Notes under the pieces: model-generated
What the model was told of the DNA's origin: nothing
The model's input: the letters and a program-made list of their open reading frames with translations, nothing else
The model's database searches: none
Shown: piece by piece, positions 16,793 through 31,150 of the stretch
Position numbering within the stretch: position 1 is the first letter of the stretch
Layout of the letters: every line of letters begins with the position of its first letter
Program-made: the position numbers and the translations under genes
NCBI GenBank assembly: GCA_021734345.1
Contig: JAIPJC010000014.1
Span: 1 to 40,630 of the forward strand
DNA: 40,630 nucleotides
Source of the DNA: Kiritimatiellales bacterium
GTDB lineage: Bacteria > Verrucomicrobiota > Kiritimatiellia > Kiritimatiellales > Pontiellaceae
Reading direction: 5' to 3'

Positions 16793-16960
16793 AAGCATCT
16801 CCGTACGATGACTGGTCATACCAATCCAGCACCGGGCTGTATGCGCCTACTGGCCAAATAAAACAACTCCAATCGTCCGAAGGGCCTTGTAGCCAATGAG
16901 GTAGCATTCTGCGCCAAGCGACGGACGCTTTATGGCTGAAGACGGATGTATATGAAAGGC
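16793..16960. other. Gap between GH43 gene and sulfatase pair
   Basis: All three genes here run on the minus strand. I see neither a hairpin with a T-run nor a well-spaced promoter in these 168 bases, so the GH43 gene and the two sulfatase genes may be one transcript or may have an internal promoter I cannot recognise. Confidence 0.35.
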
Positions 16961-17998
16961 CTACGGGCAGCATTCGCGCGGCAGGCCCGGGGCGGGAAAC
17001 TTGTCGCCAACAGGAAATTCCAGGCGCTGGATGCCGAGTTTTACTTTCTGGTCGTCGGGGGAATAGTAGAAGTAGCTGATCCAGTTTTTGGGGCCCGAAC
17101 CGTCCAGATCGGTGTTGATCAACCCAATATGGCCGGAGGCGATGCGCCGTTGCGGAATTCCCTTGGGCAGTGTGCGGTCGATCGGGAAGAACGGTGCGCC
17201 ACCTCCGTCCAACATGTCCTTGCCGGACCTGTCCAGATAGGGTCCCGTTGGTTTTTTTGAATAGCCCATCCGCACCTCGTACGTAGCCTCGGCACCTTTT
17301 ATGTGGGGTGGGGTGCCCCAGTTGACGAATAAAACGTAGCCGCCCTTGGGGTGGGCGATCAGGCAGGACGCTTCGATGGAGCGTTTGCGGATCTTGCCGC
17401 GCGAGGCGAGGGACTGCATGGGACTGTTTTTGAGTTTTTTACCGGTGGCTGGATCGAGCTGGATCAGCTTGATGCCGGACCAATAGGAGCCGAACGACAT
17501 CCACAGCTTCCCGTTATCCGCTTCCTGGATAAGCGATGGGTCGATCGCGTTGTAGTTGCTTGCTCCCGAGGTCTCGATGACAACACCGCGATCAATCCAC
17601 GGCCCCGAGAGATCCGGCGAGGAATTGACCGCCAGCGCGATGCAGGATTTCGAGGATCCGAGCGTGGAAAGCGAATAATATAGAAACACGTTGTTTCCGA
17701 CCCGGATGATGTCCGGCGCCCATGCACCTTTCCCCCCTCCAGTGTAAGTTGACCACCATGCTGGTGGAATCGGGAATACCGCACCGGTGGAGTCCCAGGT
17801 TTTCCCTCCGTCCGATGATTTTTTAATCTGGATGCCGGCTCCGGTCGCAAAAACCCAGCATGTTCCGTCGCTGGTCCGGTAGATGGTTGAAGGGTCGAAG
17901 GTTTTATTCACCCCCGACAATTGCGCTGCGGCAGGCCCGGCGAGTAGGCAGAGGGAGCATACGAGCGACATAGCCGATGTTTTTATATGAATCGTCAT
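16961..17998 (-). CDS. GH43 glycosidase, arabinanase-like
   Basis: A 345-residue secreted enzyme with a signal peptide ending near AAAQ (about 26). It fits the five-bladed GH43 fold of endo-1,5-alpha-arabinanases and arabinofuranosidases. The three acidic residues are visible: catalytic base Asp35 in TFDPSTIY, pKa-modulating Asp153 in AIDPSLI and general acid Glu209 in SIEASCLI. WAPDIIRV (94-101) is also typical. The length suits a single-domain arabinanase. It would cleave arabinan or an arabinose- or xylose-containing side chain, and precedes two sulfatase genes on the same strand, which points to a sulfated heteropolysaccharide target. Specificity within GH43 is not certain. Confidence 0.88.
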   Translation of the reverse strand: MTIHIKTSAMSLVCSLCLLAGPAAAQLSGVNKTFDPSTIYRTSDGTCWVFATGAGIQIKKSSDGGKTWDSTGAVFPIPPAWWSTYTGGGKGAWAPDIIRVGNNVFLYYSLSTLGSSKSCIALAVNSSPDLSGPWIDRGVVIETSGASNYNAIDPSLIQEADNGKLWMSFGSYWSGIKLIQLDPATGKKLKNSPMQSLASRGKIRKRSIEASCLIAHPKGGYVLFVNWGTPPHIKGAEATYEVRMGYSKKPTGPYLDRSGKDMLDGGGAPFFPIDRTLPKGIPQRRIASGHIGLINTDLDGSGPKNWISYFYYSPDDQKVKLGIQRLEFPVGDKFPAPGLPRECCP

Positions 17999-17999
17999 T

Positions 18000-18309
18000 A
18001 GACCTGTTTATATGAGGTTAAACACTACGGGGATCAATACAAAATAGAGGCGTTTTATGCAAAGACGATCACGCATGGCTACCGGATGCGGGTTCGCCGG
18101 CACTGTTCGTGGGGGGAATGGCTGCGATTGGGCTCCCTTTGCTCGGAAATAGTATTAAAACCATCGGGGTATATGTTTATTCGACATGCAGAGTCCGGGA
18201 ACAAGGCTTGACATCGCCACTTTGTTTTACATACACGTCAGTAGATGAAATCGCTTTCAAAATTGACGCACCCCAAAGGCGATTCCATATCGCCAGGAAT
18301 CATGAAACC
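18000..18309. other. Divergent control region between GH43 and ECF sigma genes
   Basis: About 310 bases without a credible gene. It holds the minus-strand promoter at 18034-18062. It may also hold a plus-strand promoter for the sigma gene: TTGACA (18208-18213) with ATACAC 17 bases on, or TACATA at 14 bases, neither a good -10 box. A reading frame continuous with the sigma gene is open back to 18109, but its translation has no domain character. No copy of the GTAAC/TTTAG block is present here. Confidence 0.4.
18034..18062 (-). promoter_or_regulatory. Sigma-70-type promoter for GH43 gene
   Basis: On the minus strand TTGCAT (18062-18057), a 17-base spacer and TATTGA (18039-18034) lie about 36 bases before the GH43 ATG. 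Spacing is ideal and both boxes are close to consensus. Confidence 0.5.
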
Positions 18310-19047
18310 ATGAATCACCCGGGACCGGATTCATATGAGGGAACGTTTCCCACGACCCAGTGGAGCGTGGTGCTGGACGCCGGGGCGTCGGAAACCGGAA
18401 TCGCGGCGGCTGCGCTTGAAAAGCTGTGCCGACGCTATTGGTATCCCGTCTATGCCTTTGTGCGCCGCCACGGCCATGATGTTCCGGGGGCAGAGGATCT
18501 GACGCAAGGGTTCTTTGCATTCGTGCTTGAGCGAAAGGCGTTTCACCGGGCTGATCCGCAGCGCGGCCGGTTCCGGTCCTTCCTGCTCGCTTCCCTCACC
18601 CATTATCTGCACAACGAACATGACCGCGCCCAGACGCTCAAGCGCGGGGGATCGCTGAAGCTCGTTTCCCTGGATCAACCCGGTGCCGAGGAGCTGTACG
18701 GCCGCGAAACCGCCGACCACGCCACGCCGGAGAAAATGTTCGAACGGCAATGGGCGGCCCTGCTCGTCCGGCGCGTACTGGACCGGCTGGAGGAGGAACA
18801 CAACCAGCGTGGCCAGTCGGCCCTCTTCCTTTGCCTGCAACCCTGTCTGACAGGCTGCCCGGATACGGGTTCATGCGCGCGGACCGCCCATCAACTGGGA
18901 ATGACCGACGGAGCAGTCAAGGTTGCGCTGCACCGCGCCCGTCGCCGTTTTGGAGAATTGCTGCGCCACGAGGTGGCCCATACCGTTAGCCGCCCCGAAG
19001 ACGTGGAGGATGAAATCCGGCACCTCCTCGCGGCTATCGCAGAATAG
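18310..19047 (+). CDS. ECF-type RNA polymerase sigma factor
   Basis: The protein has 245 residues. The ATG at 18310 is chosen because homology-like sequence begins with FPTTQWSVVL shortly after. Region 2 is seen in EDLTQGFFAFVLERKAF and FRSFLLASLTHYLHNE; region 4 in AHQLGMTDGAVKVALHRARRRFGELLR, a helix-turn-helix for the -35 box. This is the long ECF type common in Planctomycetes and Verrucomicrobia, often encoded beside Ser/Thr kinases. No anti-sigma gene follows; instead the kinase gene begins 84 bases on. Four cysteines (175, 179, 183, 189; spacing x3, x3, x5) sit at the start of region 4, where relatives as I recall them have ordinary residues. Control by phosphorylation, as known for other ECF-kinase pairs, is inference. 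Confidence 0.9.
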   Translation: MNHPGPDSYEGTFPTTQWSVVLDAGASETGIAAAALEKLCRRYWYPVYAFVRRHGHDVPGAEDLTQGFFAFVLERKAFHRADPQRGRFRSFLLASLTHYLHNEHDRAQTLKRGGSLKLVSLDQPGAEELYGRETADHATPEKMFERQWAALLVRRVLDRLEEEHNQRGQSALFLCLQPCLTGCPDTGSCARTAHQLGMTDGAVKVALHRARRRFGELLRHEVAHTVSRPEDVEDEIRHLLAAIAE

Positions 19048-19096
19048 ATCGGCGGCGGATGCCGGGGATCCGGGATCGCGAATGGTGCATCCGCCT

Positions 19097-19122
19097 GTAA
19101 CTTTTGTCCGTGCTCGCTTTAG
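19097..19122 (+). promoter_or_regulatory. GTAAC-N16-TTTAG block before the kinase gene
   Basis: GTAAC at 19097 and TTTAG at 19118-19122 are separated by exactly 16 bases, as in the four blocks at 22881, 24738, 26578 and 27874. The spacer sequence is only loosely similar, though GC directly before TTTAG is shared with three of them. The kinase ATG is only 10 bases beyond TTTAG. If this is a promoter the transcript would be nearly leaderless and would lose the AAGGAAGAG ribosome-binding site, so chance is a real alternative. Confidence 0.4.
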
Positions 19123-19131
19123 AAGGAAGAG

Positions 19132-22100
19132 ATGGACCCCCTGTACGCAAAACCCAAGTGTACTGAATGTGGCGGCCCCCTTGCGGAGGGCGTTCCCTCC
19201 GGCTTGTGCCTGCGCTGCCTGCTTGCCCTCGGGTTGAAGTCCGAACGGGATGGCGGCGAAGAGTTCATGGATCAGCCGCCAGCACCCGCCGGCGCGGACA
19301 GCTTTGACCGCTACCGCGTAATCGAGAAGATTGGCGAGGGCGGCTGTGGTGTGGTCTATCGCGCCGAGCAGCTTGCGCCCGTGCGCCGCGAAGTGGCGCT
19401 CAAGGTTATCAAGCTCGGCATGGATACCCAGGCCGTGCTGGCCCGCTTCCAGGCCGAACGGCAGGCCCTCGCGCTGATGGATCATCCGCATATCGCCCAG
19501 GTGCTCGATGCCGGGGCGTCGCAAAGCGGACGGCCCTTCTTCGCCATGGAACTGGTTCGGGGCGAGCCCATTACCACCTATTGCGATCGTCGGGAACTAT
19601 CTGTCCGCCAGCGGCTCGAACTCTTCACTCAAGTCTGCCACGCCCTCGAACATGCCCACCAGAAGGGCGTCATCCACCGCGACATCAAACCCTCCAACAT
19701 CCTTGTCATGGAACAGGACGGAGTGCCGGTGCCCAAGGTGATCGACTTCGGCGTGGCCAAAGCAACCTCCACGCAACGCCTGGCCGACCAGACGGTGTAT
19801 ACCGCCTTCGACCAGTTCGTCGGAACGCCCGCCTACATGAGTCCGGAGCAGGCTGGTCTGACCAGCGAGGACATCGATACCCGTAGCGACATCTATTCCC
19901 TCGGCGTTCTGCTCTACGAACTGCTCACCGGGCGTCCACCCTTCGATCCCGGACGGATGCGGCAGGTTGCCATCAACGAAATCTGCCGCATCATCCGCGA
20001 GGAGGATCCCGCACCGCCCTCCTCCCGGGTGGCCACCCTGAACGACAAGGAACTCTCCGAAACCGCGCGCTGCCGCCTCAGCCCCGCGCCTCGCCTGGCG
20101 GCCCAGCTGCGTGGCGACCTCGACTGGCTGGTTATGAAAGCGATGGAGAAGGAGCGCAACCGCCGCTATGCCTCCGCCGGCGATCTGGCCGCCGACATCG
20201 GCAGGTATCTCGGGCACGAACCGATCTCGGCCGGACCTCCCGCCGCGCTCTATCTGCTTCGCAAGTTCGCCCGGCGCAACCGTAGTGCCGTCATCGCCGT
20301 CACCTCGGTGGTTCTGGCTTTGCTCGCCGGGTTGATCCTTTCCTCTTGGCTCTATATCCGCGAAAAGGAGACCCGCCACTGGGCGGAAGCGCGGGCCTAC
20401 GCCTCGGACATGGGGCTGGCGGCACGCTTGGTCAGCCAGCCGTTGGGTCTCGGTGGCGTCGCCCGCCTGTTGTCCGCGTGGCCGGATCGCGAGCCAGATC
20501 AACGCGGTTGGGAATGGTACTACCTCAACGGCCTCTGCCACCAGGAGGTGTTGGCCATTGATGCCGCCAGCAATGCGCTGTCTTCGGTGGATTGGAGTCC
20601 GGACGGCACCCGCCTCGCTTCGGGAGGAGCGGGCAATGAAGTGCGTATTTGGGATGCAACGACCGGATCGCTGGTCGCGACGCTCTCCGGACACACGGAC
20701 ACGGTGAACGCAGTCGCTTGGAATCCCGACGGGCAGCGGCTGGCGTCCGGCGGATCGGATGGTAGCGCCCGGATCTGGGATGTGACCCAATCCAAGCAAC
20801 TCCACGTCCTGCGATGCCCAGGCAATCAAATTTTTTCCATGGCATGGAGTCCCGATGGCCGCGCTCTGGCTGTCGGATGCCGGGACGGACAGGTCAAGCT
20901 TTGGGATGCCGGGAGCGGTACGGAGTTGAAGACCTTGCGCGGGCAAAGGGCCGCCCAATGCATGGCATGGAGTCACGACGGTTCACGATTGGCGGGCGTG
21001 GGCGGCGACGAACTGTTGATGCTTTGGGACGTCTCCACCGGGAAGGATATCAGCTTCAACTCACTACCCGGCTATGGAGGATTTCGCACCGTCGTCTGGT
21101 CGCCGGATGATCGCATGCTCGCCACCGGCGGCGACGATTTTACGATCAAGTTGTTCGACTCGGCCACTGGCACCAACACCGCAACATTCTGGGGCCATCA
21201 CGGCGGGATCGGGTCCTTGGCGTGGAATACGGATGGAACACGTCTCGCTTCCGCGGACAGGGGCGACGGCACAGTGCGTATCTGGGATGTGGCGGGCCAA
21301 CGGATGGTTCGCTCGTTTCGCGGCCATCGCGGACCGGCCACGTCGGTGGAATGGCAACCACACGGCACCCGCGTTGCTTCGGCCGGCTCCGACGGCACCA
21401 TCCGCATCTGGGATGCGAATCGCGACAACCAGAGCCTGCGTTCCATCCGCCACCCCAATCAGGTATTGAGCATATCATGGCACCCCGACGGTCGGCGGTT
21501 GGCCGTGGGCGGACGCGATGATTCCGCTGCGATCTGGGACATGCGCCAGATGGCGAAACCCATTGAGTTGCACAGTCCCGTCAACTGGGTCTGGAAGGTT
21601 GCGTGGAACCCCGCGGGTTCCTTGCTCGCAACGCTGGGCGATGACAACATCGTTCGGCTCTGGCATTCCGACGGGCGGGATGCCGGTCAATTCGCCACGG
21701 GGGACGGCATCCGGGCGATGGCGTGGAATCCAGACGGAACGCGCCTCGCGCTGGTTGGCGGCAAGCTGAATATCTGGACTGTGGCGACGACCAACGCCAC
21801 GGTGATCAGCGATCTGGACCATGCCGGCAGTCTTGCCGTTGCCTGGAGTCCCGACGGTGAACGCCTGGCTGCCAGCGCGGGACATCGAATACTTGTTTTA
21901 GACGCGCGCAGTGGCCGCCCGCTACGCACGTTGACCGGCCATTCCGATGCCGTGCGTGCGTTGGCGTGGAGCCCCGACTCGCTGCGGCTAGCCTCCGCCA
22001 GCGACGACGCGCTGGCCAAGGTTTGGAATATGGGAACGGGACATGACATGCTCACACTTGCCGGGCATACCGCTCCGGTCTGGACCGTGGCTTGGAGCCC

Positions 22101-22695
22101 CGATGGCACGCGGCTGGTCACCGGTGGTTGGGACAACGTCGTCAAGGTTTGGGATCCGGCCAACGGCATCGAACTCTGTTCGCTCACCGACCACCCTGCA
22201 CAGGTGGCCTCGGTGGCGTTCAGCCCCGATGGCGACCGACTCGCCTCGTCCGACCTTGATGGCAATATTTTCATCCGCGATGCCGGGCCGGGTCGGCAGG
22301 GAATCCAAGGGATGTCTTCCCGTCGGCCTTCTAGCAATGCCCTCCAGCCGCTGATCTGGCGCCGGGACATTCTGGAGAAACGCGCCATCGCAGGCGATCT
22401 GGATTCGATGTACATGTTGTCAACGCTGCTGGCCACCTGTCCATATGCCGAACTGCGCGATGGCCGCAAGGCCGTTGAGTTTGGGAAAAAAGCGGTGGAA
22501 ATCACCCACCGCAACAACGCTGGCGTTCTCGATGGACTGGCCGCCGCCTATGCCGAGGCGGGCGATTTCACGAATGCGGTCGCAACCCAGAAGGAAGCCA
22601 TTGCGCTCTTGAACGGCCCGATCGCCAAGGCCGAATTCACTACCCGCCTGCGCCTCTATGAATCCGGCACCCCCTGCCGCAACTACGATTTATGA
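19132..22695 (+). CDS. Membrane Ser/Thr protein kinase with zinc ribbon and 14 WD40 repeats
   Basis: The protein has 1187 residues, starting at an ATG preceded by GAAGGAAGAG. A zinc ribbon (CxxC near residue 8, CLRC near 27) comes first. The kinase domain (about 64-370) has IGEGGCGVVY as glycine loop, catalytic Lys91 (VALKV), HRDIKPSN (182-189) and DFG (205-207), all intact. One membrane helix (about 386-408) follows, so the C-terminal part should lie outside the cytoplasm. I count 14 WD40 repeats between about 480 and 1065, enough for two seven-bladed propellers. A helical TPR-like region (about 1085-1170) ends the protein. The layout suggests a receptor kinase whose propellers sense an extracytoplasmic signal and whose likely target is the ECF factor encoded just upstream. 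Ligand unknown. Confidence 0.93.
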   Translation: MDPLYAKPKCTECGGPLAEGVPSGLCLRCLLALGLKSERDGGEEFMDQPPAPAGADSFDRYRVIEKIGEGGCGVVYRAEQLAPVRREVALKVIKLGMDTQAVLARFQAERQALALMDHPHIAQVLDAGASQSGRPFFAMELVRGEPITTYCDRRELSVRQRLELFTQVCHALEHAHQKGVIHRDIKPSNILVMEQDGVPVPKVIDFGVAKATSTQRLADQTVYTAFDQFVGTPAYMSPEQAGLTSEDIDTRSDIYSLGVLLYELLTGRPPFDPGRMRQVAINEICRIIREEDPAPPSSRVATLNDKELSETARCRLSPAPRLAAQLRGDLDWLVMKAMEKERNRRYASAGDLAADIGRYLGHEPISAGPPAALYLLRKFARRNRSAVIAVTSVVLALLAGLILSSWLYIREKETRHWAEARAYASDMGLAARLVSQPLGLGGVARLLSAWPDREPDQRGWEWYYLNGLCHQEVLAIDAASNALSSVDWSPDGTRLASGGAGNEVRIWDATTGSLVATLSGHTDTVNAVAWNPDGQRLASGGSDGSARIWDVTQSKQLHVLRCPGNQIFSMAWSPDGRALAVGCRDGQVKLWDAGSGTELKTLRGQRAAQCMAWSHDGSRLAGVGGDELLMLWDVSTGKDISFNSLPGYGGFRTVVWSPDDRMLATGGDDFTIKLFDSATGTNTATFWGHHGGIGSLAWNTDGTRLASADRGDGTVRIWDVAGQRMVRSFRGHRGPATSVEWQPHGTRVASAGSDGTIRIWDANRDNQSLRSIRHPNQVLSISWHPDGRRLAVGGRDDSAAIWDMRQMAKPIELHSPVNWVWKVAWNPAGSLLATLGDDNIVRLWHSDGRDAGQFATGDGIRAMAWNPDGTRLALVGGKLNIWTVATTNATVISDLDHAGSLAVAWSPDGERLAASAGHRILVLDARSGRPLRTLTGHSDAVRALAWSPDSLRLASASDDALAKVWNMGTGHDMLTLAGHTAPVWTVAWSPDGTRLVTGGWDNVVKVWDPANGIELCSLTDHPAQVASVAFSPDGDRLASSDLDGNIFIRDAGPGRQGIQGMSSRRPSSNALQPLIWRRDILEKRAIAGDLDSMYMLSTLLATCPYAELRDGRKAVEFGKKAVEITHRNNAGVLDGLAAAYAEAGDFTNAVATQKEAIALLNGPIAKAEFTTRLRLYESGTPCRNYDL

Positions 22696-22851
22696 ATCAG
22701 GTCCGGCAACACATCGATACAGAACAATTACGCAAAATAATTTTATGCAAAATGTTGGATTCGAGCGTGAAGTGAATATACATGCTTCCTCTAGGGTTCC
22801 ATTTTGCATCAAATCATTTTGCTAAAACCTCCTGCTGCGAAGCCGCTTCGG

Positions 22852-22870
22852 CGAAAAAAGCAATTTTTCG
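22852..22870 (+). terminator. Inverted repeat ending in T-run, possible terminator
   Basis: CGAAAAA (22852-22858) pairs with TTTTTCG (22864-22870) around 5 bases. It is 157 bases after the kinase stop and 10 bases before a GTAAC box. The T-run is part of the stem, so terminator activity is uncertain. Confidence 0.35.
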
Positions 22871-22880
22871 AAACTTTTCC

Positions 22881-22906
22881 GTAACCCTTCTCCTCCGTTG
22901 CTTTAG
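22881..22906 (+). promoter_or_regulatory. Repeat block copy 1 (GTAAC-N16-TTTAG), upstream of kelch gene
   Basis: GTAACCC, a C/T-rich spacer with CCTCCGTTGC, and TTTAGTA. AACC preceded by a T-rich tract and a 16-base gap to a second box match the general shape of ECF sigma promoters (-35 AAC motif). It lies about 410 bases before the kelch ATG. Confidence 0.6.
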
Positions 22907-23213
22907 TAATCGGCATGGAAGCCTTGTGCTTGTATGGCGCGGGGTTCGTGTCTGCCGACGACGGCTTCCAAAGGGGGGATGGGGTTTTGAAGGATTGCGC
23001 CAACCATAACCAAACGGTGGGAATGCGCCGGTTGCAGAAGAGTCTGAAGTACAAACCGGATGTTTATTCCTCACGCGCCTTTAGATCGACAATCTCCCAG
23101 CGCATGGTTTCCAAATCTGGATCATTCCCCAAATCTTTTGGAAGATATTTGTTCATGACGAAAATCAAATTTGACTTCCCATCCAAAATTCCGTACACGG
23201 TCTACGTGATTTT

Positions 23214-23271
23214 CAGGCCGATCCTCCCGGGCGTGTGCCTGTATCGCTTGGAAAGCCGTTTCCCGCCAGTC
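23214..23271. repeat. 58-base interspersed segment, copy A
   Basis: Aligns without gaps to 31061-31118 with 41 of 58 bases equal, including an unbroken core CGGGCGTGTGCC. The core can fold as GGGC-GTGT-GCC(C/T) inside CGAT/ATCG. On the minus strand both copies read W-x3-A-x-Q-x-I-x-AHAR-x2-RP, so a gene remnant is equally possible. Confidence 0.6.
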
Positions 23272-23318
23272 GATCCTTTCGTATTCCTTCTTGAGTTCAA
23301 ACAACCGGGGGTAAAACC

Positions 23319-24566
23319 ATGAAAAAGTCCATTAAACTCGCACTGTGCGGCCTGGTGGCCGTTGGTCTTTCGTTAAATCCTATGGCCCAGGCCGCTTGGC
23401 AAGCCGGCCCTTCGCTGCTGACGGCGCGGGACCAGTTCGCGGGTGGAGTGCTGGACGGCAAGCTGATCGTGTTTGGCGGGAACGGGAATCCGGGCGGCAT
23501 TAACCTGAAATCGACGGAACTGCTCGATCCCGCCACGGGGCCGTGGGTCTACAAGGCCGACAACAACCATAACGGGGGCTGGGGCGTCGAGGAGCTTTCC
23601 GGGGCGGTGGTCAACGGCAAGTTCTATGCCCTTGGCGCAATCGGCGGAGTAATTTCCCCCTATGGCGTTTTCAATTTTGTCGAGGAATACGATCCGGTCA
23701 GCAATGCGTGGACATCCAAAGCCCCGATGCCCTCGACACGGGCGAGTGCGACGGCCGTTGCCTATAACAACAAGATCTATGTGTTTGGCGGATATTACGA
23801 AAACCAGATCGATCATGTTCGCACGAGTTATACCGTGGTGGAAGCGTATGATCCGGCCAACAATACCTGGTCGACCGAAACCTATATGCCCGAGTACATT
23901 CAAAGCCCTGCCATAACCGTGGTTGGCGACAAGGCCTATGTGATGGGTGGTTATGTTGGAGATTTCCCGGACGGACATCTTGCAACAGATGTGGCCGTCT
24001 ACGATTTTATCGCGCATTCATGGAACACCAATAGTTGCGCTCCGATGCCGAATCCCGCTGTGTTCGGGTATTCCAGTGCCACCCCCGTCAAGGATGGAAA
24101 GATATATTTGGTCGGTGGAATTGGAGTTTCCGGAACGAATGCCTGGTATTCGAGGAAGGTCAATATCTACGACACCGTTTCAAACACATGGCAAAGCGGC
24201 TATCCGCTGCCCATTGGTACGGCCAACGAATTTTGCGCGGTTATCGGCAATGACCTATGGGTGGTGGGTGGTGACAATGGCGAAGTCGATGTGAACGGGG
24301 ACGACATCGCCATCGCAACCGTTTTGAAGCACAGTCTCGACAATATCGCGCTACCCCCGCTCCTCGCTTCCCTTTCCCCTGCGATGGGCGGATTCGAGGT
24401 AAGCTGGAACGCAGTGGACGGGCTGGCCTACAGCGTACTCTGGACGCCAAACCTGACCAACAGTTTCCAGACCCTGCAATCAGGCATTGAACCACCACAA
24501 AACAGCTATACCGACACGGTGCATGCAGCCCAATCGGCGGGGTTCTACCGGGTCGAAATGGAGTGA
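23319..24566 (+). CDS. Secreted kelch-repeat beta-propeller protein
   Basis: The protein has 415 residues with a signal peptide ending around AQAAW (about 25). A GGGGG tract lies 8 bases before the ATG. Five kelch hallmarks are visible: KLIVFGGNG, KIYVFGGYY, KAYVMGGYV, KIYLVGGIG and DLWVVGGDN, each preceded by a W/Y and an acidic turn. The last 75 residues are a separate short domain (SWNAVDGLAYSVLWTPNLTN to AGFYRVEME) of the kind found at the ends of the other exported proteins here. The role is unknown; kelch propellers usually bind proteins or glycans. It is the first gene after repeat block copy 1. Confidence 0.85.
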   Translation: MKKSIKLALCGLVAVGLSLNPMAQAAWQAGPSLLTARDQFAGGVLDGKLIVFGGNGNPGGINLKSTELLDPATGPWVYKADNNHNGGWGVEELSGAVVNGKFYALGAIGGVISPYGVFNFVEEYDPVSNAWTSKAPMPSTRASATAVAYNNKIYVFGGYYENQIDHVRTSYTVVEAYDPANNTWSTETYMPEYIQSPAITVVGDKAYVMGGYVGDFPDGHLATDVAVYDFIAHSWNTNSCAPMPNPAVFGYSSATPVKDGKIYLVGGIGVSGTNAWYSRKVNIYDTVSNTWQSGYPLPIGTANEFCAVIGNDLWVVGGDNGEVDVNGDDIAIATVLKHSLDNIALPPLLASLSPAMGGFEVSWNAVDGLAYSVLWTPNLTNSFQTLQSGIEPPQNSYTDTVHAAQSAGFYRVEME

Positions 24567-24594
24567 TCCGGCCATGCGCAGTCCATGCATCCGC

Positions 24595-24649
24595 CATCCG
24601 GGATCGGTGCCCCGGATGAATGTTGTAGCCGGGGTCGGCGACCCCGGCT
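24595..24649. repeat. Twin palindromes, REP-like
   Basis: Two adjacent hairpins follow the kelch gene. CATCCGGG/CCCGGATG (24595-24618) has an 8-base loop. AGCCGGGGTC/GACCCCGGCT (24627-24649) has perfect 10-base arms and a 3-base loop. Such paired GC-rich palindromes are typical of REP/BIME elements spread by RAYT transposases, but only one unit is seen in the window and no RAYT gene. Confidence 0.6.
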
Positions 24650-24703
24650 GTATCGGAACGGGTCGGCGGCCCCATCTGCAAACCAACCAGTTGCAAAACC
24701 AAC

Positions 24704-24727
24704 TCGGAAGCCTGTCCGATTTTTTTT
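24704..24727 (+). terminator. Intrinsic terminator of kelch gene
   Basis: TCGGA (24704-24708) and TCCGA (24715-24719) form a short stem followed directly by eight T. It sits 10 bases before the GTAAC box of copy 2, so the T-run may double as an upstream promoter element. Confidence 0.6.
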
Positions 24728-24737
24728 CAACTTCCCC

Positions 24738-24763
24738 GTAACCCTTCCCCTCCGTTGCTTTAG
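24738..24763 (+). promoter_or_regulatory. Repeat block copy 2 (GTAAC-N16-TTTAG), upstream of beta-helix gene
   Basis: GTAACCC, spacer CCTCCGTTGC, TTTAGTA. Together with the following 35 bases it is almost identical to copy 1. It leaves a leader of about 110 bases before the beta-helix ATG. Confidence 0.65.
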
Positions 24764-24879
24764 TAGGCGTATGGAAGCCTTGTGCTCGTATGGCGCGGAG
24801 ATCGCGCCACCAGCGTCGGCATCCAATAGGGACGGGGTAGTAAGCGGGAGTGAAAACCATCAACACACAGGAGGAAAAC

Positions 24880-26454
24880 ATGCATAAATTCATCAGTAGG
24901 TATCAATCGCGGCTGTTGGCCGTGCTGGCAGCGCTCGGCTTCGCGGCAATCGCCGCACAGGCGCAAACCGTCATAACCGGCCCCAACATCACCACCAGCA
25001 CGTGGTCACCGGCGGGCAATCCCTACATTGTCGCGGCGAATTGCACGGTGCCGAGCGGCAACACGCTGACCATCCAGCCGGGAACCATCGTATGGATGGG
25101 GGAAGGCGTCTCGCTCACTGGCAACGGCATAATTCAGGCCGCAGGGACATCGGGTCAACGGATCACCTTTCAAGCCATTTCAGGAGGGGGGAACTGGGAC
25201 ACCATACTAGTCAACAACACGACGGGTACAAACCAGTTCAAGTATTGTGATTTTTTATCCAGCGCGAGGGCTTCGCTTTGGTTCGGGAAAGACTTTGCTG
25301 CTGGAACTAGTCAGTTCAACGAAGTAATGTATAGTACGTTTTCGAATTCTGGTGGCGGTGTTACATTCCGAGTTAGCAGCGTCAATACGGTTCAGTTCTG
25401 CGACTTTCAGAATGTGACGAACTGTATCTACATGTCAAATACTGGAGACGGAGCTGAAGTTATAGCAACGCGAACACAGTCAAACATCATAAAAAACTGC
25501 GTCTTTGAAAATTGCTCGCAACCAATCTATGGACAAGCATCCGGAACTGCTGGTCATCATGTATACAACGGTTGGGTTGTCGACTGGGCACAAACATGCA
25601 TTCTAAACGCAGATATTCGAAACTGCTTTTTTGGCTTATCAGACTCTGGAGTGCAGTTCTACATTTCTGGCCAACAATCTGTAAGCACTGTTGGTCGTGG
25701 GCACAATTACGTCACGCTAAAAAATAATAGCTTCTCTGATATATCGGGTACCGCGATATGGTTGCGTGTCGGAAGCGTGTCTGGAAGCAGCACGGCCTCA
25801 CTGATAAACAATTCCTTTGCCAGTGCGGGAAGCGGAGTTGTTGTAACGGATCCATGGGACGCGACGATCCAGAACAACATTTTCGATGGGTGCGCCAGTG
25901 CCGTTACCCGGTCGGGGTCGCTTTCGGCGACGGTGAGCTACAACGACTTTTTCGGCAACACCGCCAACTTCACGGGTTATCCCGTCACCTACGGCCAGGT
26001 GTTGCTAACCAACCGCAACGGCACGCCGAGCGACGTACTCTACAATATTTTCCAGGATCCGCAGTTTGTCGCGTCGGATGATTTCCATCTACAGGCTGGT
26101 TCGGCCTGCATAGATGCCGGCGAGGGCAGCGCGGCGAACTTCGACAGCTATTTCCCTCCGTCGCAGGGCACGACCTTCAACGACATCGGTGCGTATGGCG
26201 GCCCCGTGGCAGGAAGGTGGCTGGATGTCGCGCCCTACGAACCCTATGTCGTGCCGGTGGCGGCCATCGACCTCTATGTGGGCGTCACGGTCAACCCGCC
26301 CTCGCCCGGCCATTACCGGTTGGAGTATTCCACGGATTTGTTGGATCCCAACAGTTGGTCCCAACTCACGAACATGGACATGACAACGGAGCCGGTCATC
26401 TATTACGAGCTGCCCTCCGAGCCCCAGCGGTTCTATCGCGCAGTTCAACAGTGA
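24880..26454 (+). CDS. Secreted right-handed parallel beta-helix protein
   Basis: The protein has 524 residues. The ATG at 24880 is preceded by AGGAGG and starts a signal peptide ending at AQAQT (about 30); an in-frame GTG at 24850 lacks these. Repeated short strands with Asn/Phe ladders (NNSFSDISGTAI, NNSFASAGSGV, NNIFDGCASAV) indicate a pectate-lyase-like parallel beta-helix. No catalytic pattern of a known lyase family can be named. A SACIDAGEGS stretch near 415 is a common closing motif in such proteins. A C-terminal module ends RFYRAVQQ. The part coded by about 25200-25830 is far more AT-rich than both ends of the gene, which suggests an exchanged central segment. It is probably an adhesin or polysaccharide-binding/degrading protein. 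Confidence 0.85.
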   Translation: MHKFISRYQSRLLAVLAALGFAAIAAQAQTVITGPNITTSTWSPAGNPYIVAANCTVPSGNTLTIQPGTIVWMGEGVSLTGNGIIQAAGTSGQRITFQAISGGGNWDTILVNNTTGTNQFKYCDFLSSARASLWFGKDFAAGTSQFNEVMYSTFSNSGGGVTFRVSSVNTVQFCDFQNVTNCIYMSNTGDGAEVIATRTQSNIIKNCVFENCSQPIYGQASGTAGHHVYNGWVVDWAQTCILNADIRNCFFGLSDSGVQFYISGQQSVSTVGRGHNYVTLKNNSFSDISGTAIWLRVGSVSGSSTASLINNSFASAGSGVVVTDPWDATIQNNIFDGCASAVTRSGSLSATVSYNDFFGNTANFTGYPVTYGQVLLTNRNGTPSDVLYNIFQDPQFVASDDFHLQAGSACIDAGEGSAANFDSYFPPSQGTTFNDIGAYGGPVAGRWLDVAPYEPYVVPVAAIDLYVGVTVNPPSPGHYRLEYSTDLLDPNSWSQLTNMDMTTEPVIYYELPSEPQRFYRAVQQ

Positions 26455-26522
26455 TTCCAGCCGACAATCCGGAGCTGGATCGGGAAGGATAGTCGGAATG
26501 TGCAGTTTGGGAAATGGGCGAG

Positions 26523-26542
26523 GGGGCGATCCCCGTGCTTTT
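26523..26542 (+). terminator. Weak terminator after beta-helix gene
   Basis: GGGG (26523-26526) and CCCC (26531-26534) form a short stem with a 4-base loop, followed after four bases by TTTT. It is 36 bases before the GTAAC box of copy 3. Confidence 0.35.
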
Positions 26543-26577
26543 GGGTAATAGCAGACTGCGATTTTCTCAACTTCCCC

Positions 26578-26603
26578 GTAACCCTTCCCCGCCGTTGCTT
26601 TAG
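26578..26603 (+). promoter_or_regulatory. Repeat block copy 3 (GTAAC-N16-TTTAG), upstream of lipoprotein gene
   Basis: CAACTTCCCC precedes GTAACCC; the spacer has CCGCCGTTGC, then TTTAGGA. The first half is identical to copy 2 and the sequence after TTTAG diverges. It lies about 100 bases before the lipoprotein start. Confidence 0.6.
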
Positions 26604-26700
26604 GATGGGTGTAAGGGATCTGTATTGTCTGGTCGGGGCGAGCGGCAAGAATCCTGCGGTCTAGCCGAATGTTGGAATCGGATGATAGAGGAAGGGGCGT

Positions 26701-27126
26701 TTGAGAATAATATTTACAGCAATTGTGGCAATCGGCTTCCTTGCCGTTCAAGGATGTTCCGACCAAGCCGCGAAGGAAGTCGCCGCCGACATAGCCCTCC
26801 CGAAGGATCTCGCCATGATGCAGGGAACATGGACGTCTGTTGCCACCAACGGTTGTGGCGGCAACTGCGGGGCGACCATCGAAGGCTATACCATCCGCGT
26901 TCGCTATCAGGAGACTTCCGATTCTCCACTGGTTCGGGAAGGTGCGATCGTCGACCACCTCGATGAACAGAAGAAGCTGCTCATCATCAACAATGGGTAC
27001 GGGGCGTGGCGCTATGCCCTTGGAACGGCGGACGGGCAGGAACGGCTGGATCTGGAGTTTTTCAGCCAGCACCATCTGGATTGGCGAACACTGCACATGC
27101 GGCGAAGATCAAGCGAACAGATGTAA
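26701..27126 (+). CDS. Small putative lipoprotein
   Basis: The protein has 141 residues. The TTG start at 26701 is accepted because AGGAAGGGG lies just upstream and the N-terminus MRIIFTAIVAIGFLAVQGC is a classic lipoprotein signal with Cys19 as the lipidated residue. The mature part contains MQGTWTSV and later beta-rich sequence (TIEGYTIRVRYQE, GAIVDHLDEQKKLLIINNG), reminiscent of lipocalin-like small domains whose N-terminus reads GxW, but I do not recognise the family. A CGGNC pair (about 53-57) is unusual. It is transcribed from repeat block copy 3 as a single gene. Confidence 0.72.
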   Translation: MRIIFTAIVAIGFLAVQGCSDQAAKEVAADIALPKDLAMMQGTWTSVATNGCGGNCGATIEGYTIRVRYQETSDSPLVREGAIVDHLDEQKKLLIINNGYGAWRYALGTADGQERLDLEFFSQHHLDWRTLHMRRRSSEQM

Positions 27127-27159
27127 ATTCTTGCCTAAAGGCGCGGCGGGAGTAGGCTG

Positions 27160-27176
27160 ACCCAAGAAGCTTGGGT
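27160..27176 (+). terminator. Hairpin after lipoprotein gene
   Basis: ACCCAAG (27160-27166) and CTTGGGT (27170-27176) pair perfectly around a 3-base loop, 34 bases after the stop. Only TGTTGTG follows, so termination may be weak. Confidence 0.45.
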
Positions 27177-27259
27177 TGTTGTGATCGCAACGTACGAAGT
27201 GGCGTCAAGCGATTGCGGGAGCGAAAAAGGGGGCGCGGCATGGTGGAGGGGGCGAACCA

Positions 27260-27829
27260 ATGAGCGATAGGCTTCCGAAGGTTTTCGATTCGGGACAACT
27301 GTCCCTGTTCCCAACCGCCCCGCGGGAGCTTTGCAAGGCGCTTGGCCTCCCTTGGTGGACGGCCATCCAGCTTCACAAGGAAGGTTTCATTAGCTTTGAT
27401 CCGGACAGCATTCCAGAACTCAACGAACCACAAATGGCGGAACTGTCGTTTGTCGGATCGCTGGTGGCGGCAAACTGCTCCCCCGAAGCCTTGCAGGACC
27501 TGTTGTCCGGCCTTACGAAACCCTACTGCTACAGCCATCGTAAAATCTATTACTACTGGCCTTCCAAAACGTGGAAACCGATCCCCGAATTACCGGAAGA
27601 GGCCAGCGAATACCACCCCACCATAGCATGGAAGCTGATTCCAAAATTTCCGGAACATCCCGAAGCGTGGGATCTGTTCCCCGAATTATCGAGACAGCCC
27701 GACGAATACGCGGCCGCCTTCCAATGGCTGGATAGCCTGGGGGAGGCCGGAGAGGTCGAAACCTTGCAAGACATCCAGAACCGTATCGATCACTTGCTGC
27801 GGATCCTGCCGGATGACGGAGACGAATAA
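27260..27829 (+). CDS. Conserved hypothetical protein, cytoplasmic
   Basis: The protein has 189 residues, with no signal peptide and no membrane segment. The ATG at 27260 follows a purine-rich GGAGGGGGCGAA tract. An N-terminal region (KALGLPWWTAIQLHKEGFISFDPDSI, about 27-52) looks like a small helix-turn-helix or MerR-like reader of the type where a residue string before FxSFDP contacts DNA, but this is weak. The middle is rich in Trp, Pro and Tyr with a repeated pattern WKxIPxxPE (KTWKPIPELPE, AWKLIPKFPE, AWDLFPELSR), three imperfect units between about 100 and 150. I do not recognise the family. It is the only non-exported protein in this stretch. Confidence 0.65.
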   Translation: MSDRLPKVFDSGQLSLFPTAPRELCKALGLPWWTAIQLHKEGFISFDPDSIPELNEPQMAELSFVGSLVAANCSPEALQDLLSGLTKPYCYSHRKIYYYWPSKTWKPIPELPEEASEYHPTIAWKLIPKFPEHPEAWDLFPELSRQPDEYAAAFQWLDSLGEAGEVETLQDIQNRIDHLLRILPDDGDE

Positions 27830-27862
27830 AGATTCCCTGTAGCGTACTCTCCGTATTTTTTT
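27816..27862 (+). terminator. Terminator overlapping the end of the hypothetical gene
   Basis: ACGGAGA (27816-27822) and TCTCCGT (27848-27854) pair across a 25-base loop that contains the stop codon, and seven T follow one base later. The GTAAC box of copy 4 starts 12 bases after the T-run. Confidence 0.5.
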
Positions 27863-27873
27863 GGAACTTCCCT

Positions 27874-27899
27874 GTAACCCTTCCTCTCCCTTCCTTTAG
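27874..27899 (+). promoter_or_regulatory. Repeat block copy 4 (GTAAC-N16-TTTAG), upstream of lipoprotein operon
   Basis: GGAACTTCCCT precedes GTAACCC; the spacer is CTTCCTCTCCCTTCCT-like and TTTAGTA follows. It is the most diverged of the four in the spacer, while both boxes and their distance are unchanged. It leaves about 130 bases of leader before the ATG at 28031. Confidence 0.6.
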
Positions 27900-28030
27900 T
27901 AAGCGGTAGGAATGCGTGTTGGATGGTCGGGATGCGGGGTTCGCCTTTGGCGTTGAGCCACTACCTCCAGCAGCGAATACGGGTCGGAGAATCAGGCAGG
28001 GAAGTTAACTAAAAACAAAAGGAGAAGTGA

Positions 28031-28762
28031 ATGGTGAAAAATAGAATAGCTGGATCTTCAATAGGATTATTGGTGGCCGTAATCTTTAGCTCGGGGTGCG
28101 CGCATGAGCTGACGGTCAAGAACCTTCGCACCTACCAGAACCACCAGATGAACCCGCTCTGCAAACCACTGACCATCGGAGTGGTTCAATCGACCAACGA
28201 TGATGACTTGCAGCAGCTCGTGAATGGAGTCGGCACAGCCCTCCAAAGAAACTCTGCGACGGTTGTTCTGCCCTATCGTGCTGGACAGGGTGCCCCGGCC
28301 GATGTGGTTGCCAACATTGCCATCCGTCCCGAGTACAAGGGATCGGGATGGAATTTCCTGATCAACTGGCCGGGATTTCTCGTTTGGGCGCCAGCGTGGA
28401 ACGGCTATGTCTACAAGGCGAACTACGACGTTCAAGTCGTGCTAACAAAAGGGTCGGACAACAGCAATATCGCTTCGTGGTCCATGCCGATCAATTTGAA
28501 TATTCGCCAAGCCGAGATCGACCGGACCTGGACCGAGATCGGGTGGCTCGAATGGGGCATCACCCCGTTTATCGGCGGCTTTGTCTTCACCCAGTACGAT
28601 CCAGATGTGACATCCCCTCTCCTGGATAAGATCGAGGCTCCTATCGGTGAGTACATCGCAAAGGAAATTATCGTGCGGATTAACAACAGTGGCCAGTTTG
28701 CATCCCTGCCCGCCGCCATGGCCCAGCAAATCTGTCTAACGACAGCTCCAGACGGACAATAA
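28031..28762 (+). CDS. Putative lipoprotein, first gene of envelope operon
   Basis: The protein has 243 residues. GGAGAAG lies just before the ATG. The signal MVKNRIAGSSIGLLVAVIFSSGC gives a lipobox with Cys23. The mature part contains NWPGFLVWAPAWNGYVYKANYDVQVVL, alternating hydrophobic strands, and WLEWGITPFIGGFVF, which could touch the membrane. I do not recognise a named family. The order of a short N-terminal domain with LTIGVVQSTNDD, then a hydrophobic turn before YDVQV, is similar in outline to the next gene (PSWATDHYDATVTV), so the two may be distant paralogues. It is followed by a large stem-loop and three more exported-protein genes. Confidence 0.75.
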   Translation: MVKNRIAGSSIGLLVAVIFSSGCAHELTVKNLRTYQNHQMNPLCKPLTIGVVQSTNDDDLQQLVNGVGTALQRNSATVVLPYRAGQGAPADVVANIAIRPEYKGSGWNFLINWPGFLVWAPAWNGYVYKANYDVQVVLTKGSDNSNIASWSMPINLNIRQAEIDRTWTEIGWLEWGITPFIGGFVFTQYDPDVTSPLLDKIEAPIGEYIAKEIIVRINNSGQFASLPAAMAQQICLTTAPDGQ

Positions 28763-28921: not shown

Positions 28922-29551
28922 ATGAACAAGATTAAAATAACATGTCTGGGTTTATGCATGGCAGCTACAACCATGTTGACGGGATGCGCGTCATTTTCGA
29001 GAAACCAACTGCCTGCGGTAGGCAATTTGCAACGGGCTCCCTTCAATGCCCAAAAGGTCGATGCAACCTATTCATTTTCAGCCGGAATGGAACTGTTTGG
29101 AAAACAAGAGTTTCCAGAGAATACAAAAGCGATGCTAAAAAAAGAGTTTACCGGTGTAATGAAGGATTCCGGTTGTTTCGCGTCGCTATCGGCGGGAGCC
29201 CAGGGCGGGATGCACATGGATGTCAGATTGGTAAATTCCGGCAGTGCCTCCGCGATGATCCCGGCAGTGATTACCGGGCTTAGCCTGTACATCATTCCCT
29301 CCTGGGCGACGGATCACTACGACGCTACGGTGACGGTGATGCCGCCGGACGGGCGTGAGCGTACCTATAAGCTTGGCGACGCCATGACCACGGTCCAATG
29401 GCTTCCGATGATCGTCGTTGCACCATTCAAGAATTTGGTTGGTGTGTCGGAGGATGTCCGCGTCAACATCTGGAAGAATCTCGTTGTCAGGATGCAGAAA
29501 GACGGGTTGCTGCCCGCAGCGGAGGCTGGGCAAACAACCTTGAAGAGATAG
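28922..29551 (+). CDS. Putative lipoprotein
   Basis: The protein has 209 residues. The ATG at 28922 has AGGAGG about 10 bases upstream and starts a signal with lipobox LTGC (Cys22); in-frame codons back to 28856 have no signal character. The mature part has a VDATYSFSAGMELFG strand region, a glycine/alanine-rich stretch (SASAMIPAVITGLSLYIIPSW) that is hydrophobic enough to insert in a membrane, then YDATVTVMPPDGRERTY. I do not recognise the family. It lies between the stem-loop at 28770 and the barrel gene at 29610 and looks like part of one envelope operon. Confidence 0.75.
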   Translation: MNKIKITCLGLCMAATTMLTGCASFSRNQLPAVGNLQRAPFNAQKVDATYSFSAGMELFGKQEFPENTKAMLKKEFTGVMKDSGCFASLSAGAQGGMHMDVRLVNSGSASAMIPAVITGLSLYIIPSWATDHYDATVTVMPPDGRERTYKLGDAMTTVQWLPMIVVAPFKNLVGVSEDVRVNIWKNLVVRMQKDGLLPAAEAGQTTLKR

Positions 29552-29609: not shown

Positions 29610-30260
29610 ATGAATGAAAATTTAATGAAGGCAGTATTGGGCATCATGTTGGCGGCATCGTTTTGCCATGCACAAACGGATGAGGGCATTGAAGGGGTCA
29701 AAGATGGGCAGGCGGAAGCGACAGACAAGGTTGCCGTTCTATTTGGTGGCGGGTTTGTTTACTCGCCCGGCTATGGAGACTTCATAGATGACACGTATGT
29801 GAACCAAGGTTATGAAGACTCAGGGCTGGGCGGCTGGCTGGATCTGTATATGGGGGTTGAATACAAGGCGCTGCCGCAGGTTTCGGTTATTGGCGGATGC
29901 GATCTTATGCTCAACGCTGTGGATGTTTCGGGGGGTGCCCTCGATGAAACATATCTGAATGCCATCCTCAATCCTTCACTGTACGGCCAGTTCTTTACCG
30001 AGGCTCGTTCCTTCTATGTGAACGGGGGGATCAGCCTGCCGATTCCCAGCACCGGTAGCGACTACTTCGAGTACGAGAACAACGGAGTTGGGTGGGGAGG
30101 CCACATCGGATATGCATCCAGTACCGGAGTCTTTAGGATCGAAGTCGGATACGTGTCCGTACCCGTAACGGCCAAGGCTTCTGCTAGCAATCCCGTTCTG
30201 ATTGGAGAAGAGGAATATGACTTTGGCGGGTTCCAGCTCAAGGCCATGGTTGGATTCTAA
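29610..30260 (+). CDS. Small outer-membrane beta-barrel-like protein
   Basis: The protein has 216 residues. The ATG at 29610 follows AAGGAAAGGGG and begins a signal peptide ending at SFCHAQ (about 22). The mature chain is rich in Gly, Tyr and alternating hydrophobic residues, with strand-like stretches (GGWLDLYMGVEYKAL, AKASASNPVLIGEEEYDFGGF), and the last residues QLKAMVGF end in Phe, the usual C-terminal signature for BAM-dependent outer-membrane barrels. An 8-stranded barrel would fit this length. No specific family is recognised. The neighbours on both sides are lipoproteins. Confidence 0.7.
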   Translation: MNENLMKAVLGIMLAASFCHAQTDEGIEGVKDGQAEATDKVAVLFGGGFVYSPGYGDFIDDTYVNQGYEDSGLGGWLDLYMGVEYKALPQVSVIGGCDLMLNAVDVSGGALDETYLNAILNPSLYGQFFTEARSFYVNGGISLPIPSTGSDYFEYENNGVGWGGHIGYASSTGVFRIEVGYVSVPVTAKASASNPVLIGEEEYDFGGFQLKAMVGF

Positions 30261-30328: not shown

Positions 30329-30769
30329 ATGAAGAATATCTATAAACTGGGACTCTGCTTTACACTCGTCGGATTTCTGTCGGGTTGCGCATCGACCAAG
30401 CAATTCGTTGCATTTCCTGACCAGACTAAACGCGTGGAAGATCCAAACAAGGCGCGAATCTATGTTGTGCGTCCCACCTCGCTCGGTGGTGCCATCAGCA
30501 TGGATGTCCGCGATGGAGGAAAAATCATTGGCACGACCGGCGCCAATGGATACCTGTGTTGGGAAAGAAATCCTGGTGAAATGGAAATAACCGGGAAGGC
30601 CGAGAACACCGCGAAACTGCCCCTAACGGTCGAAAAGGGCGGAGTGTACTATATCCAGCAACACGTAAGAATGGGATTTTTGATGGCTCGAAACAAGTTG
30701 AGCGTCCTTTCAGAGGCGGAAGGCAAAGAAAAAGTTAAGAAGTGCAAGCCGCCAACGGTTACCAAATGA
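30329..30769 (+). CDS. DUF2846-type lipoprotein
   Basis: The protein has 146 residues. AAGGGGACGG lies upstream of the ATG. The signal ends in a lipobox FLSGC (Cys20). The body matches the DUF2846 pattern: KARIYVVRPTSLGG, then SMDVRDGGKIIGTTGANGYLCWERNPGEMEI, then LPLTVEKGGVYYIQQHVRMGF, a compact beta-sandwich of unknown function found in many envelope lipoproteins. The C-terminus is lysine-rich (KEKVKKCKPP). Its stop overlaps the ATG of a tiny membrane peptide gene (ATGA), so both are probably coupled. Confidence 0.8.
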   Translation: MKNIYKLGLCFTLVGFLSGCASTKQFVAFPDQTKRVEDPNKARIYVVRPTSLGGAISMDVRDGGKIIGTTGANGYLCWERNPGEMEITGKAENTAKLPLTVEKGGVYYIQQHVRMGFLMARNKLSVLSEAEGKEKVKKCKPPTVTK

Positions 30770-30894: not shown

Positions 30895-31060
30895 TTGTCG
30901 ATATTTGCGTTTATAAGCGGGGCATTGGGGATTCCCGATGTCTCGTTTTTTTTGTCGGTGGGCAATGCCGGATGTGGCGTGCAACCCGGCCCTTTGGGAA
31001 AGGTCCCAAACTTGACCGCGCCGCCGTTTTCCTGATACACATCGGCGTGAACCTGCTGTC

Positions 31061-31118
31061 CAGGGCGATTCCTTCGGGCGTGTGCCCATATCGTCTGAAG
31101 AGCGGCTCCGTGCCAGTT
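31061..31118. repeat. 58-base interspersed segment, copy B
   Basis: Ungapped partner of 23214-23271 (41 of 58 equal). The hairpin core GGGC-GTGT-GCCC is kept. The minus-strand frame (NWHGAALQTIWAHARRNRP) stays open further downstream to about 30760, which favours a decayed coding remnant. It ends 32 bases before the start of the aldehyde dehydrogenase pseudogene. Confidence 0.6.
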
Positions 31119-31150
31119 CCAAAAATTGGGACAATGAAGGAAACCCGGAT

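Follow-up and report, generated by a model that had tools for sequence, protein, structure and literature searches.

What reads a short block of DNA that recurs five times, always with the same internal spacing, beside a gene for an extracytoplasmic function (ECF) sigma factor and a gene for a Ser/Thr kinase? The question is raised by a stretch of 40,630 nt from a Kiritimatiellales bacterium of the Verrucomicrobiota (contig JAIPJC010000014.1, positions 1 to 40,630 of the forward strand, assembly GCA_021734345.1), referred to here as the window, whose source genome assembly amounts to 3.25 Mb in 176 contigs and is 84.8% complete. An earlier reading of the letters by eye, the original prediction, proposed that the sigma factor encoded at 18310 recognizes the block, GTAAC-N16-TTTAG, as its promoter. 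Judging from sequence comparisons, the five blocks are very probably promoters read by this ECF sigma factor, and they would define a small, local regulon formed by a WD40 kinase and adjacent envelope genes. The sigma factor, the kinase and the candidate promoters are listed below, with ranks and scores taken from a weight matrix derived from other genomes (see below).

18310..19047, + strand: ECF-type sigma factor gene, 245 aa, assigned by TIGR02937 and PDB fold matches
19097..19122, + strand: candidate promoter site 1, GTAAC-N16-TTTAG; rank 5, score 20.7; the same position is occupied in relatives
19132..22695, + strand: Hanks-type Ser/Thr kinase gene, 1187 aa, with an N-terminal Cys motif, a kinase domain (PF00069, 61-298), a C-terminal WD40 propeller (WD40 repeats) and one likely membrane segment
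22862..22906, + strand: candidate promoter site 2 with T tract, GTAAC at 22881; rank 3, score 24.0
24719..24763, + strand: candidate promoter site 3 with T tract, GTAAC at 24738; rank 2, score 24.1
26559..26603, + strand: candidate promoter site 4, GTAAC at 26578; rank 4, score 22.5
27855..27899, + strand: candidate promoter site 5, GTAAC at 27874; rank 1, score 24.1

The five sites and the adjacent sigma factor

An exact pattern search of the window returned GTAAC-N16-TTTAG at 19097, 22881, 24738, 26578 and 27874, all on the + strand, compared with 0.02 sites expected from dinucleotide shuffles. This reproduces all five positions and the fixed 16-base spacing of the original prediction, and its statement that the 40 kb hold no other copy was borne out as well, since allowing one mismatch added no site in the window. 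It had also asked how the motif is distributed over the whole genome: the distribution is clustered, with five of the seven exact matches in the 3.25 Mb falling in the window. The copy at 19097 sits in the 84-nt gap between the sigma and kinase genes and is followed 9 nt later by the kinase ATG. The other four copies are intergenic, fall inside 5.1 kb, and each is followed by a gene on its own strand. As had been noticed earlier, these four share an extended block; they are alike over approximately 65 nt, most strictly from the T tract to the -10 box and more weakly downstream. The sequence AACTTCCC is common to three of them, the exceptions to the shared block being the copy at 22881, which reads AACTTTTCC, and the copy at 27874, which carries CTTCC instead of GTTGC before TTTAG.

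Two structures are found next to the sites. An AT-rich inverted repeat (22732-22822; 23-nt arms, 91% complementary, 45-nt loop) lies between the kinase stop and site 2. A terminator-like hairpin occupies 24704-24719, and the number of terminators is not above that in shuffles; its T8 tail coincides with the T tract before site 3, so that part of this tract may be the end of the preceding transcription unit.

The assignment of the 18310 product to the ECF sigma factors (group 4), which would contain sigma2 and sigma4 domains but neither sigma3 nor sigma1.1, is based on its length, on TIGR02937 and on modelled fold. The protein, searched as 18313-19047 with the first Met omitted, passes the cut-off of TIGR02937 (sigma70-ECF) narrowly, with 43.6 bits against 42.9, and falls below that of Pfam Sigma70_r2. 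An AlphaFold2 model with a mean predicted local distance difference test score (pLDDT) of 72.7 was compared with the PDB by Foldseek. Among its 14 best fold matches, 11 are named ECF sigma factors (AlgU, SigL, SigE, SigW), two are chains of M. tuberculosis initiation complexes in which the sigma is not named, and one is sigma32. These matches are weak (E-values of 0.03-0.9, none at or below 0.001; TM-scores of 0.23-0.33 by query), and the ECF call therefore leans on TIGR02937 as much as on fold. A sequence search of the PDB with the same protein matched no chain.

The element beside sigma genes of other genomes

Homologues of the sigma factor were gathered as 56 loci from public genomes plus loci from genomes of the same class, where 81 of 345 genomes gave a match at E<=0.001 (the best 30 loci were fetched and more were added later). 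Homologue matches that ended short of query residue 225, stops no more than 60 nt from the end of a sequence and gaps present in duplicate were excluded, and 95 homologues were kept for a census of the gap. Many homologues labelled Verrucomicrobiota, Planctomycetota and Acidobacteriota have an element of the form GTAAC-N16-(K)TNAG immediately 3' of the sigma gene. In 34 of the 95 distinct homologues, against 5.5 expected, a GTAAC falls between -10 and +200 nt relative to the sigma stop, and 16 of the 27 with at least 45% identity carry one in the gap, the window being included in both counts. GTAAC is also the most over-represented of the 1024 5-mers in gaps (33 of 94 homologues, compared with 7.0 in shuffles). 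When GTAAC followed by [GT]T[CT]A[GAC] was counted in 55 relatives, a spacing of 16 was found five times and each other spacing from 10 to 25 at most once. Alignment of the non-window sites on GTAAC reveals conserved columns (p<0.001) at -5, -1, +18, +22, +24, +25, +27 and +34; the -10 box of relatives is often GTCAG, TTCAG, GTAAG or CGTAG, and the consensus over the collected sites is approximately TGTAACCTTT-N8-TTNC-TTCAG. At three loci (L111, L113 and L114) site and sigma stop codon overlap. The hallmark of ECF promoters is an AAC at -35 and a CGT at -10, according to PMC8103513. Set against this shape, with an AAC-type -35 box, a CGT-like -10 box and 16-17 nt between them, the candidate boxes are GTAAC and a KTYAG-like pentamer 16 nt apart.

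The position of the kinase start codon adds to this picture. Genes with a kinase-type N-terminal Cys motif supplied 47 ATG starts, and GTAAC in the 80 nt upstream of them gave 34 counts, in 14 of which the -10 pentamer ends 8-10 nt short of the ATG; in other relatives 16-50 nt separate the -10 box from the kinase ATG. An ATG 8-10 nt after the -10 box is near the expected start site, which fits transcripts beginning at or near the ATG and argues for a promoter role; it also suggests that the kinase mRNA may be leaderless in many relatives.

The weight matrix was built from 35 gap GTAAC sites with full flanks in other genomes, some of them likely to be chance sites, and contains no window site. 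On this matrix the five window sites rank first to fifth of approximately 81,000 positions on both strands, with scores of 20.7-24.1 and the next position at 13.9. By the -10 columns alone, four window sites are in the top 0.016% of positions and the one at 26578 is in the top 0.11%. Applied to the loci of relatives at a score of at least 15, the matrix matched 23 gap sites, many of which had trained it, and 19 other sites; with the spacing altered by 1 to 7 nt, the gap matches fell from 23 to 0-7 and the other matches from 19 to 2-8. The 19 matches outside gaps precede genes for exported proteins or lipoproteins (six), a membrane protein (one), the sigma factor (three), kinases (three) or nothing clear (six). 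In a metagenome-assembled genome of the Bryobacterales (L026), two very similar high-scoring sites (4085 and 9772) flank the sigma locus, and the one at 4085 precedes a gene for an exported SGNH-hydrolase-like protein, as judged by eye.

A 30-bp sequence-only model was built from 34 sites, comprising the five window sites and matches hand-picked from the matrix matches in relatives, with lower-quality matches left out; in each scan part of the first-look candidates was scored. In its own genome (150 of 267 candidates scored) it returned at E<=10 exactly the five window sites, and as these are part of the model, the scan speaks for the absence of others and not as independent support. It gave 18 matches in ten relatives at E<=10 (up to 150 candidates per genome) and 13 matches in eight of the 345 genomes of the class at E<=0.3 (21 per genome). 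Nine matches lie outside the training set. Four of them precede kinase-like genes: those at L185 and L188 adjoin a sigma homologue (48% and 46%, respectively), and the other two are those at L192 and L199, the latter on a contig that also has a sigma homologue 3.9 kb off. Genes for exported or membrane-anchored proteins follow three further matches (L183, L196 and L200), and two (L021:9675 and L025:7136) have no clear gene. The expectation that the sites lie upstream of exported-protein genes thus holds at several sites outside the window, in the genomes of relatives.

The motif does not behave as a property of the target gene. Homologues of the lipoprotein that follows site 5 were found at 17 loci in 16 other genomes, and a scan reaching up to 600 nt ahead of the aligned part (152 nt at one locus; two overlapping loci share the same stretch) detected no site, the best score being 9.8 against 24.1 in the window. 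These siteless upstream regions indicate that the motif does not travel with the target gene and rule that explanation out. No sigma match was obtained in 13 of the 16 genomes, whereas G100 carries strong sigma homologues and G188 and G265 weak ones. Among the 345 genomes of the class, a sigma homologue is present in seven of the eight motif-positive ones, sites from six of the eight having been used in model building.

Points against and alternative explanations

The gap footprint across phyla, the matrix taken only from relatives and the co-occurrence of motif and sigma gene all support the proposal that the sigma factor at 18310 reads the sites, and the two-box element is nearly unique to this locus in its genome. 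Several points weigh against it. No GTAAC is found in the gap of 61 of the 95 sigma homologues; these homologues are kin to one another, so that counts across them are not fully independent, and the [GT]T[CT]A[GAC] pattern of the spacing comparison was picked after some sites had been seen. The four intergenic copies look like duplicates and hence are not independent either. A reversed-sequence control of the matrix still gave 9 matches compared with 42. The comparison with genomes lacking the sigma factor, which the original prediction had put forward, came out in its favour in part: 13 such genomes carry a siteless target homologue, and the motif-positive genomes nearly all have the sigma gene. 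It did not hold for G131 (89% complete), where a site precedes a signal-peptide gene and no sigma homologue was detected, which argues against a strict one-to-one pairing of motif and sigma gene, unless the assembly has missed that gene. As for the extent of the regulon, GTAAC-N16-KTYAG occurs 9 times in the own genome against 29 in the reversed control and is rarer than this control in eight of nine genomes of relatives (3 against 0 in the ninth); moreover, four matches outside the window, including both exact ones, score only 7-10 on the relatives' matrix. With the pattern below its reversed control and low scores outside the window, a broad regulon is ruled out.

The TTTAGT that follows TGC also resembles the extended -10 box of sigma-70, and the blocks could then be housekeeping promoters in which TGC-TTTAGT is the extended -10 and GTAACCC a conserved activator site upstream, with the ECF sigma gene merely nearby. 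TTTAGT matches TATAAT at four of six positions by eye, and sites 2 and 3 read TTGCTTTAGTA. However, no TG precedes the -10 box at sites 1 and 5, the -10 boxes of relatives given above are not TATAAT-like, a sigma-70 scan of 18000-28100 called seven promoters (4.1 in shuffles) with none on the motif, and the element follows sigma genes across phyla, all of which leaves the housekeeping explanation very unlikely. It is extremely unlikely that the four intergenic copies are a dispersed repeat devoid of promoter role, either of the repetitive extragenic palindrome (REP) or miniature inverted-repeat transposable element (MITE) kind or DNA duplicated together with the genes. Their resemblance over some 65 nt, the similarity that continues downstream and their confinement to 5.1 kb would speak for it. 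Nevertheless, with up to three mismatches a 34-nt extended pattern matches in the own genome the four intergenic copies only and a 28-nt one matches nothing in 42 other genomes of the order; the copies share a single orientation, each before a gene of the same strand; and their conserved positions coincide with the columns that other genomes give for the -35 and -10 boxes. A mobile repeat was accordingly rejected, the four copies that the extended pattern gives being local and uniformly oriented, while the duplication of a promoter cassette is compatible with promoters read by the sigma factor too.

The sites might instead bind another regulator encoded with the pair, or a different ECF sigma factor. 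G131, which has the motif, leaves room for such a protein, and the binding of the sigma factor to the sites is itself a prediction. Against this stand the asymmetric pair of boxes 16 nt apart, which is ECF promoter architecture, the sigma gene present in seven of the eight motif-positive genomes, and the finding in the own genome of one sigma of the 18310 family, in a count limited to this family and exclusive of other ECF sigmas. Recognition by another regulator is consequently held to be highly unlikely.

A proposed local circuit centred on the kinase

Under the preferred explanation, promoters read by the ECF sigma factor, GTAAC would act as the -35 box and C-TTTAG as the -10 box, and the ECF holoenzyme would start transcription at all five sites. 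Site 1, between the sigma and kinase genes, would produce a near-leaderless kinase mRNA, and the four sites within 5.2 kb after the kinase gene would drive mostly exported or lipid-anchored proteins. The kinase may sense an envelope signal and set the activity of the sigma factor by phosphorylation, by analogy with the EcfP/PknT and EcfK/PknS pairs only, and raised transcription of the kinase would close a feedback loop via the kinase and not via transcription of the sigma gene. WD40 kinases of Planctomycetota are predicted to have a cytoplasmic kinase domain and mostly periplasmic WD40 repeats, as stated in PMC11032199, and the window kinase may likewise carry a periplasmic WD40 sensor. Positive autoregulation from a promoter before the sigma gene is common, though not universal, among ECF sigma factors. 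In this case no GTAAC was found in the 200 nt upstream of the window sigma gene and thus no sign of an own promoter. Upstream of the sigma gene of other homologues, GTAAC occurs in 14 of 94 (approximately 5 expected at the background rate) and the full motif in 3 of 94. At L141:1642 and L143:1765 a high-scoring site precedes the sigma gene in addition to the one in the sigma-kinase gap, and some members therefore probably autoregulate.

The genes that the four intergenic sites would control are the following; signal peptides, lipoboxes and the membrane segment of the kinase were all judged by eye.

22915..23322, + strand: 135-aa open reading frame (ORF) without a known family, lying between site 2 and the kelch gene, possibly a first cistron or leader sequence
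23319..24566, + strand: exported kelch-repeat protein (PF24681/PF01344), signal peptide
24880..26454, + strand: exported right-handed beta-helix protein (PF13229), signal peptide
26701..27126, + strand: small lipoprotein with a TTG start and lipobox AVQGC, no family
27260..27829, + strand: 189-aa protein of no known family, possibly the second gene of the site-4 unit
28031..28762, + strand: lipoprotein with lipobox FSSGC, first gene of the site-5 unit, with homologues in 16 other genomes
28922..29551, + strand: lipoprotein with lipobox LTGC, likely in the site-5 operon, start set at an internal ATG, no family
29610..30260, + strand: exported protein with signal peptide, likely in the site-5 operon, start set at an internal ATG
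30329..30769, + strand: DUF2846 lipoprotein (PF11008) with lipobox, likely in the site-5 operon

The distance from the -10 box to the gene start is 412 nt for the kelch gene at site 2 and 116, 97 and 131 nt at sites 3, 4 and 5, respectively, so that the leaders of these targets would be longer than that of the kinase. Since the 135-aa ORF intervenes, the kelch gene may not be the first one after site 2; the earlier claim that an exported protein is encoded first after each intergenic copy consequently stands at sites 3, 4 and 5 and may not hold at site 2. Downstream of sites 2 and 3, 34 nt (22915-22948 and 24771-24804) are shared at 91%, and near-identical short ORFs (MEALC-YGA) open both leaders, overlapping the kelch start codon at site 2 and passing through the start codon of the beta-helix gene at site 3. 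A conserved MEALC leader peptide was dropped as a candidate, being absent at sites 4 and 5. A 67-nt direct repeat of 70% identity links 23204-23270, in the 135-aa ORF, with 31051-31117, at the start of a broken dehydrogenase; there, 31082-31773 holds an N-terminal piece of an aldehyde dehydrogenase and then an ORF in a different frame, and the gene is probably broken. Two large sulfatases and a GH43 protein are encoded on the opposite strand (9741-17998, -), upstream of the sigma gene.

Parts of this arrangement have known counterparts. The SigX-type promoters of Bacillus subtilis carry a TGTAAC -35 box and a CGAC or CGTC -10 box, and SigX is held by an anti-sigma factor. The window sites are similar to them in the TGTAAC -35 box and in spacing, but differ in a KTYAG-like -10 box, and a kinase is proposed here in place of the anti-sigma factor of SigX. 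In the EcfP/PknT pair of Vibrio parahaemolyticus and the EcfK/PknS pair of Xanthomonas citri, both of ECF43, the kinase phosphorylates and activates the sigma factor, as described in PMC8999054 and PMC13147305. Like in ECF43, the ECF sigma gene of the window adjoins a gene for a membrane Ser/Thr kinase. Unlike in ECF43, the window sigma factor keeps an acidic AED motif in region 2.2, a promoter site is placed between the sigma and kinase genes, the kinase bears WD40 repeats, and the predicted regulon is small, local and mostly of exported proteins. The ECF43 phospho-switch, in which the acidic DAED is replaced by uncharged Ser/Thr, was set aside, because region 2.2 reads GAEDLTQ with its aligned D62 invariant in 28 homologous sequences, and the phospho-Thr device does not fit. 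PMC8999054 reports that outside ECF43 the ECF groups carry DAED or a comparable acidic stretch and may work differently, and names ECF59, ECF61, ECF62, ECF217 and ECF283 as linked to Ser/Thr kinases; in contrast, PMC8103513 gives a Ser in the acidic motif for ECF59. The window pair is like these groups in the linkage of its sigma gene to a Ser/Thr kinase gene that starts 84 nt downstream, a likeness drawn from their published description. The pairing of ECF sigma factors with Ser/Thr kinases and the general shape of the promoter are thus already known. A description of this motif or arrangement was not found in the open-licence literature searched, and a published ECF group motif might already cover the element.

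Planctomycetota and Verrucomicrobiota often have sigma factors that are paired with receptor kinases and, to our knowledge, most of these pairs have no described target promoters or regulon. The motif described here can be read from sequence and predicts direct targets, and it found further kinase genes without recourse to the sigma sequence. It points to envelope proteins as outputs, and further to a feedback that may run through the kinase and to kinase mRNAs that may be leaderless. Chances are about even that this locus exemplifies a circuit widespread in Verrucomicrobiota, Planctomycetota and Acidobacteriota, in which the sigma factor would mostly not transcribe its own gene and would drive instead a receptor kinase, often leaderless, from a promoter in the gap, together with private promoters of adjacent envelope-protein genes. 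Such loci would constitute self-contained sense-and-respond modules with feedback through the kinase.

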